A stretch of 64,000 nt of DNA, from contig OZ029918.1 in NCBI GenBank assembly GCA_964023275.1, positions 36,107,063 through 36,171,062 on the forward strand, read 5' to 3'. Numbering within the stretch: position 1 is the first letter of the stretch; every line of letters begins with the position of its first letter. Both the position numbers and the translations under genes were made by a program. Origin of the DNA: Norana najaformis (taxonomy: Eukaryota; Annelida; Clitellata; Crassiclitellata; Hormogastridae). Positions 33,812 to 61,963 of the stretch are shown piece by piece. The notes below the pieces were generated by a model. That model searched no databases and was not told the DNA's origin. It worked only from the letters and a program-made list of their open reading frames with translations.

Positions 33812-34827
33812 GTTATCGTGCCACATCTAAAATGGTGTTAAAAGCCGATCAGGTTCGAGTGAAGGCCTTGCTGGCGGAAACAATAACTCTGCTGTGTAAA
33901 AACGGTCTTCACTTTAAGGCCAAGTTCTCCATACAGGCACTGATTGGAATTACTCTGGATGAGGAAGATGTCTTTCTAGTCAACATCAACGAAACCATCG
34001 AATCAAAAGACTCTGTGCCTGACGACAACGAAGACAATAGCTCGTTCGAACAGCAGCCTCTGGCTGGAAAGCGGTTACGAGGCACCGGGACTAGAGCCGC
34101 GTCTGGACCTTCACCCAGTCCTGCATCACCCAGTGTAAAATCTCTCGGGGGAAACTCGAGCATTCCAAAAATTCCTTCAAACTCGCAGACTCGATCAACA
34201 CGCGTTAGCCGTCAAACATCTCCGCATTCTGTTGCTGCTACTCGGTCGTCTGAGGTCGTCGCTGGTAAACAACCTGTTGAGACTTCCATTGCCGCCAACG
34301 TAGGAGTCTTTGGCAGTGCTAACGATTCCATAGCAGAACTGGCAAGTGATTCTCTCCCAGCTGCAAGTCTGGGCCTGCCGGACAGTGGTGGCGGTGTCAC
34401 ATTTCCAGCCATCTCCATCAAAAATGACTCGCAGTCGAACGACACCAGCTACGACGACAGCAAGCCACTACCTGAAGAATCTGACCTTCCAGAAGAACCC
34501 TCAAGCAAGCGAATTCGATTACAAACCTCTGACAGCCGACTCGAACCATCGGTTGCGACACCCTCTTCCAGTGAAGTCAACGCGAATTTTACCTCATCTG
34601 GTGAACCTACAAAATCTGAACCTGCTGATGTAATTGAAATAAAGGAAGAGTCATATTCAGACAGCGAGAGCCAGCTACCAAATTACTCAGCATACGGCGA
34701 CTATAATGCGGCAGTATATGGTGGTGCTAATCCAGACATGACGCATGCCTTCGGTGAAACCTCCATGTTCCAGGCAGGCAGCGGCTTTTTCGTTCAGCCA
34801 TCTGGTGAAGGCGAACAAACGTCAGAA
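33812..34827 (+). CDS. Common 5' coding exon: unrecognised conserved-looking N-terminal module plus disordered Ser/Pro region
   Basis: ATG at 33832 (AAAATGG context) follows a 3' splice site TTGTAG|GTTATC, so an upstream leader exon is expected. 332 codons to the donor GAA|GTAAGTA. Residues about 1-57 look folded and amphipathic: VRVKALLAETITLLCKNGLH, then FSIQALIGITLDEEDVFLVN. I do not recognise this as BTB, SAM, BEN, KRAB or ZAD. The rest is Ser/Pro/Thr-rich, with basic patches GKRLRG and SSKRIRL (NLS-like), a SUMO consensus IKEE near K271 and a second IKND, and an acidic segment SYSDSESQ. The C-terminal end is Tyr/Gly-rich. Reading through the donor adds VSTIVCLVIS and a stop, so intron retention would give a finger-less protein. 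The six codons before the ATG are also open. Confidence 0.85.

Positions 34828-61963: not shown

Follow-up and report, generated by a model that had tools for sequence, protein, structure and literature searches.

A locus in Norana najaformis very probably constitutes a transcription factor gene in which one common N-terminal exon is followed by alternative 3'-terminal exons encoding DNA-binding domains, a reading taken from sequence to which we assign a probability of roughly 85%. The locus lies in a stretch of 64,000 nucleotides of contig OZ029918.1 (positions 36,107,063 to 36,171,062, forward strand), referred to here as the window. Directly observed are the anatomy of the locus, purifying selection on one type of its finger exons (type A) and, in homologous proteins, the junction of the common exon with two different finger tails. 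In the mechanism that we propose, transcription would begin upstream of position 33812 and produce a long transcript from one promoter. In N. najaformis, splicing would link the donor at 34827 to a single finger exon in phase 0, and that exon would supply two or three C2H2 fingers and a stop codon. Each finger exon would have its own poly(A) site, and cleavage behind the chosen exon would end the message. All isoforms would share the same module, linker and psi-K-x-E motif and would differ in their DNA-contacting residues; exon choice would be regulated, and the isoforms would bind DNA. Coordinates prefixed C6 follow the contig numbering of the window's locus, P-numbers denote database proteins and L-numbers denote genome stretches that we read.

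The common exon and its array of finger exons

The common 5' coding exon occupies 33812..34827 on the plus strand, with an acceptor at 33812, an ATG at 33832, 332 codons and a phase-0 donor, TCAGAA/GTAAGT (the slash marks the splice boundary), after 34827. An initial annotation of the window had ended one 5' coding exon in phase 0 at GAA/GTAAGT, 34827, which proved exact to the base. Because the reading frame is already open 5' of the ATG at 33832 and an acceptor lies at 33812, there is probably an untranslated exon upstream of 33812. Database proteins P0001–P0007 are orthologues of the common exon. At E ≤ 1 the common exon matched no Pfam family, the named N-terminal effector domains KRAB, SCAN, ZAD and BTB included, and at E ≤ 5 the Pfam rows for the module showed no BTB. 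This module, the first ~60 residues of the exon (59 amino acids; 33832..34008, plus strand), has no Pfam match and is predicted to fold as a helix followed by a beta hairpin (pLDDT 77). We infer an interaction or repression role for it and, by analogy with BTB, guess that it may form dimers or bring in a cofactor. Near the 3' end of the common exon is a psi-K-x-E (SUMO-consensus-like) motif, IKEE (34639..34650, plus strand), which may be a SUMO site. Of 22 module exons, 20 have a psi-K-x-E motif after the module, compared with a mean of 3.7 and a maximum of 10 in 1000 shuffles.

Downstream on the same strand, ten last exons each start at the base after an AG, open a phase-0 ORF of 101–117 amino acids and end in their own stop, 1–5 codons after the last finger. 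The first six, which we call type A, are at 39795..40136 (three C2H2 fingers), 40867..41211 (a tandem duplicate of the first; 1031 bp, 82%), 42896..43249, 45104..45427, 46822..47148 and 51626..51955. The remaining four are at 53700..54032, 57159..57503, 58123..58428 and 61628..61963. Nine of the ten encode three C2H2 fingers and 57159 encodes two; when six of these exons were scanned against Pfam, zinc fingers were returned. An in-frame ATG before the first finger is absent in seven. The A exons other than the duplicate pair are alike over the coding part and the acceptor end, which reads TTGTGTTGCAG or nearly so. By our acceptor score, an ad hoc weighting, the best AG within A-type ORFs often differs from the acceptor given here; we accept the A-type acceptors because they share this TTGTGTTGCAG-like end and, for 51626, because a homologous junction also supports it.

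An additional finger exon at about 60345..60610 (plus strand) is dead, with finger 1 in one frame, fingers 2 and 3 in another, and in-frame stops; a genome search with a finger exon scores this copy with one TAG. The initial annotation had described ten same-strand, phase-0 last exons with their own stops and a dead eleventh copy, and we recovered all of these, with all ten acceptors correct to the base. Its end point for the array, 61963, does not stand: three further finger ORFs, with two, two and three fingers, begin at C6:36171028, 36172901 and 36179135, beyond its last exon. In total the locus has thirteen finger ORFs plus the dead copy, with ~38 kb between the common exon and the final finger ORF.

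Among the fifteen pairs of A exons, dN/dS was 0.16–0.31 in the five with dS below 2, including exons 1 and 2 (0.31 at dS 0.29); dS was saturated or nearly so in the remaining ten. These values show purifying selection on type-A exons, which are therefore maintained as protein. The ten three-finger ORFs of the locus (nine in the window and one beyond) have ten distinct sets of twelve predicted contact residues, so it is plausible that the isoforms have different DNA targets. We do not claim excess variability at DNA-contact positions, for which p fell below 0.05 in one of 12 tests (p 0.04–0.56). Behind the ten exons, poly(A) signals were no nearer than at random places.

Other features of the window include a repeat of 296 columns at 90.5% identity, perhaps a dispersed repeat, with one copy 3' of exon 58123 (58892–59179) and the other 5' of exon 61628 (61278–61571). 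An open proline-rich frame of 231 codons at 8037–8729 (minus strand) may be an exon from some other, unrelated gene, and frames at 23493–24119 (plus strand) and 27092–27487 (minus strand) resemble, by eye, remains of retrotransposon reverse transcriptase.

Junctions in homologous proteins

A protein-database search with the common exon returned 170 proteins at E ≤ 10, of which 120 were listed; the module is present in all 120. Among those listed, the only organism-named protein is from the annelid Paralvinella palmiformis, which is consistent with, but does not demonstrate, the probably non-arthropod host proposed in the initial annotation. The orthologues P0001–P0007 cover 97–100% of the common exon at 46–82% identity. 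P0001–P0004 look genomic and continue beyond the donor into intron-like sequence. P0005 and P0006 run from the common exon straight into fingers without an intron, and are probably cDNA contigs because they are short (1,652–1,667 bp) and lack introns. Their common exons are identical to that of the window at 161 of 320 (P0005) and 165 of 320 (P0006) aligned residues, and the predicted window products align to both across the junction, free of gaps there. Of the window's finger exons, 51626 is the one closest to the P0005 tail (59 of 90 columns identical) and 53700 the one closest to that of P0006 (identical at 71 of 101 aligned residues; 71 of 110 columns). A tree places the tails likewise, strongly for P0006 (99/96) and moderately for P0005 (93/88).

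P0004 and P0006 are identical at 297 of 337 positions over their aligned stretch and diverge at the predicted donor, where P0004 reads NPD/VSK and P0006 reads NPD/DPVEQ and then fingers. The split at this site indicates that the donor is used in a relative. Intron-less homologues with an orthologous common exon matched only two of the ten window finger exons. P0007 combines an orthologous common exon with a non-finger tail (residues about 332–423) that is coiled-coil-like by eye and matches no Pfam family at E ≤ 0.01. P0121 is 89% identical to exon 46822 over that one exon and appears to be unspliced genomic sequence from a relative.

The module and at least two fingers share a single intron-less frame in P0005, P0006, P0049, P0056, P0091 and P0114 among the 120 listed proteins, and likewise in P0140. 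A probe combining four finger exons listed 119 new proteins, of which P0140 alone contained the module. Alignment to intron-less homologues extended across the junction at four other loci (L025 with P0114, L020 with P0049, L019 with P0056 and L021 with P0024). In four of ten junction comparisons (L026, L032, L023 and L028) there was no alignment across the chosen junction.

The module family through the genome

In the 608-Mb genome (17 contigs), the 59-residue module occurs at 72 places at E ≤ 1e-3. We read 22 module loci, namely the window and 21 others. The first batch comprised 200 kb, with 20 kb continuing on from the window and 180 kb surrounding 12 further module places. These 12 were selected as those that match the module best, and for several of them a finger match at the place also counted; nine more loci complete the set. 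The initial annotation had pictured a single locus; the locus stands, and its plan, which that annotation had not seen elsewhere, is common to other module loci.

The window and first batch contained 44 finger ORFs: 13 at the window locus, 17 on C10, three on C14, three at L022, two each at L020, L023 and L025, and one each at L019 and L024, with none in L021, L026, L027 and L028. All 44 are on the strand of their module exon (both strands were scanned). By our ad hoc score, the best acceptor is in phase 0 in 40 of the 44, compared with 170 of 492 non-finger control ORFs (p 9e-15), and in 31 of the 34 outside the window's ten. Among the 22 module exons, 16 have their best donor in phase 0. A genome search with exon 58123 gave 141 matches. 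The best 34 are all downstream of a module exon, on the same strand and within 60 kb, and 22 of these are outside the window's array; 39 of the best 43 are at module loci, where 0.36% of places would be expected. Nine of the best 11 of 141 matches to a finger exon of L022 are downstream of a module on the same strand within that distance, and the best 25 of 126 matches to exon 46822 are at module loci (list inspected).

The largest array that we saw is a paralogue on C10 (L011–L014; C10:3206101-3233946), in which 17 finger ORFs follow one module exon. Conserved order between the C6 and C10 arrays was considered and rejected: six reciprocal best pairs gave rho 0.71 (p 0.11, not significant), and one-way best-match maps gave rho 0.22 and 0.35, also not significant. 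A single pair, exon 61628 and C10:3227173, is well supported (99/95). Outside the exons, C6 and C10 DNA share scattered short matches only, which we take to be repeats.

A DNA-binding-type last exon was found in 19 of the 21 other loci, which were partly read (some assignments were by eye); the stretches read of L027 and L033 contained no such tail. Some of these tails are not C2H2 fingers. P0024 carries a domain of ~124 amino acids without a Pfam match, for which structure prediction (pLDDT 90) points to a winged-helix fold. A genome search with this domain found five copies, all phase-0 last exons behind module exons: L021:2896-3267 and 4786-5157 (minus strand), L026:2914-3282 and 4689-5060 (plus strand) and L028:3328-3702 (minus strand). 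In our searches this winged-helix-like domain occurred solely together with the module. At L032:1936-3359, a module exon is followed, again on the phase-0 plan, by a homeodomain split over two exons, and P0119 and Paralvinella P0028 are module–homeodomain proteins. Five loci (L030, L031, L034, L035 and L036) form a module subgroup in which the fingers of the tail ORFs have, by eye, a wider CxxxxC spacing.

Alternative explanations and known systems

Clusters of C2H2 genes are common, and the array might be an independent cluster that happens to follow an unrelated gene. We consider this highly improbable, given that seven of the ten exons have no start codon in frame before their fingers, that homologues fuse finger exons to the module exon and that finger exons co-locate with module exons genome-wide. 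It is also conceivable that few of the exons are in use and that the remainder are decaying tandem duplicates. One copy is dead, 57159 encodes just two fingers, as do two of the three ORFs beyond the window, and an intron-less homologue with an orthologous common exon exists for only two exons, all of which would fit decay. However, every in-window ORF is open behind a phase-0 acceptor, and the dN/dS values of those A-exon pairs, five in number, whose dS is under 2 (0.31 for exons 1 and 2) argue against it, and we regard widespread decay as unlikely.

Another possibility is that each finger exon has a promoter of its own and is trans-spliced onto the common exon, as happens in mod(mdg4), a gene with FLYWCH tails. 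Identical junctions and phase would be expected in that case too, and ~38 kb separate the common exon from the last finger ORF. According to PMC12692577, mod(mdg4) uses trans-splicing exclusively, all of its mRNAs arising in this way. The same paper places its alternative exons on both strands, some opposite to the common part, whereas all exons found here are on one strand. With 44 of 44 finger ORFs on the module strand, cis-splicing suffices, and trans-splicing from separate promoters seems to us quite unlikely.

The preferred reading, a common exon with alternative DNA-binding last exons, has its nearest counterpart in Drosophila lola. According to PMC1947980, lola joins BTB-containing common exons to unique C-terminal exons in at least 20 isoforms, most of them with zinc fingers, by cis- and trans-splicing. 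The Norana locus likewise has a common N-terminal part and alternative zinc-finger terminal exons with their own stops, in this case known from sequence. It differs in that the lola common region contains BTB, whereas here a single coding exon carries a module without a Pfam match, in that each in-window exon has two or three C2H2 fingers, and in that further loci follow the plan, some of them with DNA-binding domains of another kind. The initial annotation had read the locus as a lola-like plan on a non-BTB N-terminus, and both the lack of a Pfam match and the joining of two different finger exons in homologues bear this out. Since the locus would work as lola does but no BTB was found in its common exon, we do not place the locus in the lola/mod(mdg4) BTB family.

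In PMC11426971 the arthropod TTK-type BTB is described as an N-terminal domain that is lineage-restricted and occurs in many transcription factors. The likeness lies in the use of one N-terminal domain in many transcription factors; the domain here is a different one, of ~60 amino acids with a predicted helix and hairpin. We think it reasonably likely that the module loci represent a lineage-restricted, plug-and-play family of transcription factors, in which an undescribed helix–hairpin module at 72 places, ending in a phase-0 donor, is combined with unrelated DNA-binding terminal exons (C2H2, homeodomain and winged-helix-like), with arrays of 13 and 17 finger ORFs, as an independent counterpart of the arthropod TTK-BTB family. 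Among the papers that our searches listed, judged by title and start of abstract and with preprints and most subscription papers outside their scope, neither the module nor a non-arthropod lola-like locus was described. The mechanism is of a known kind; what is new is the module, how widely it has spread in the genome and its mixed DNA-binding tails.

If this reading holds in RNA, the strategy of lola and mod(mdg4) is bound neither to BTB nor to arthropods, and the plan would have arisen again on another protein module and recurred at many loci. The family would then offer a second, independent system for how cells select one terminal exon among many, together with an undescribed family of domains for study.
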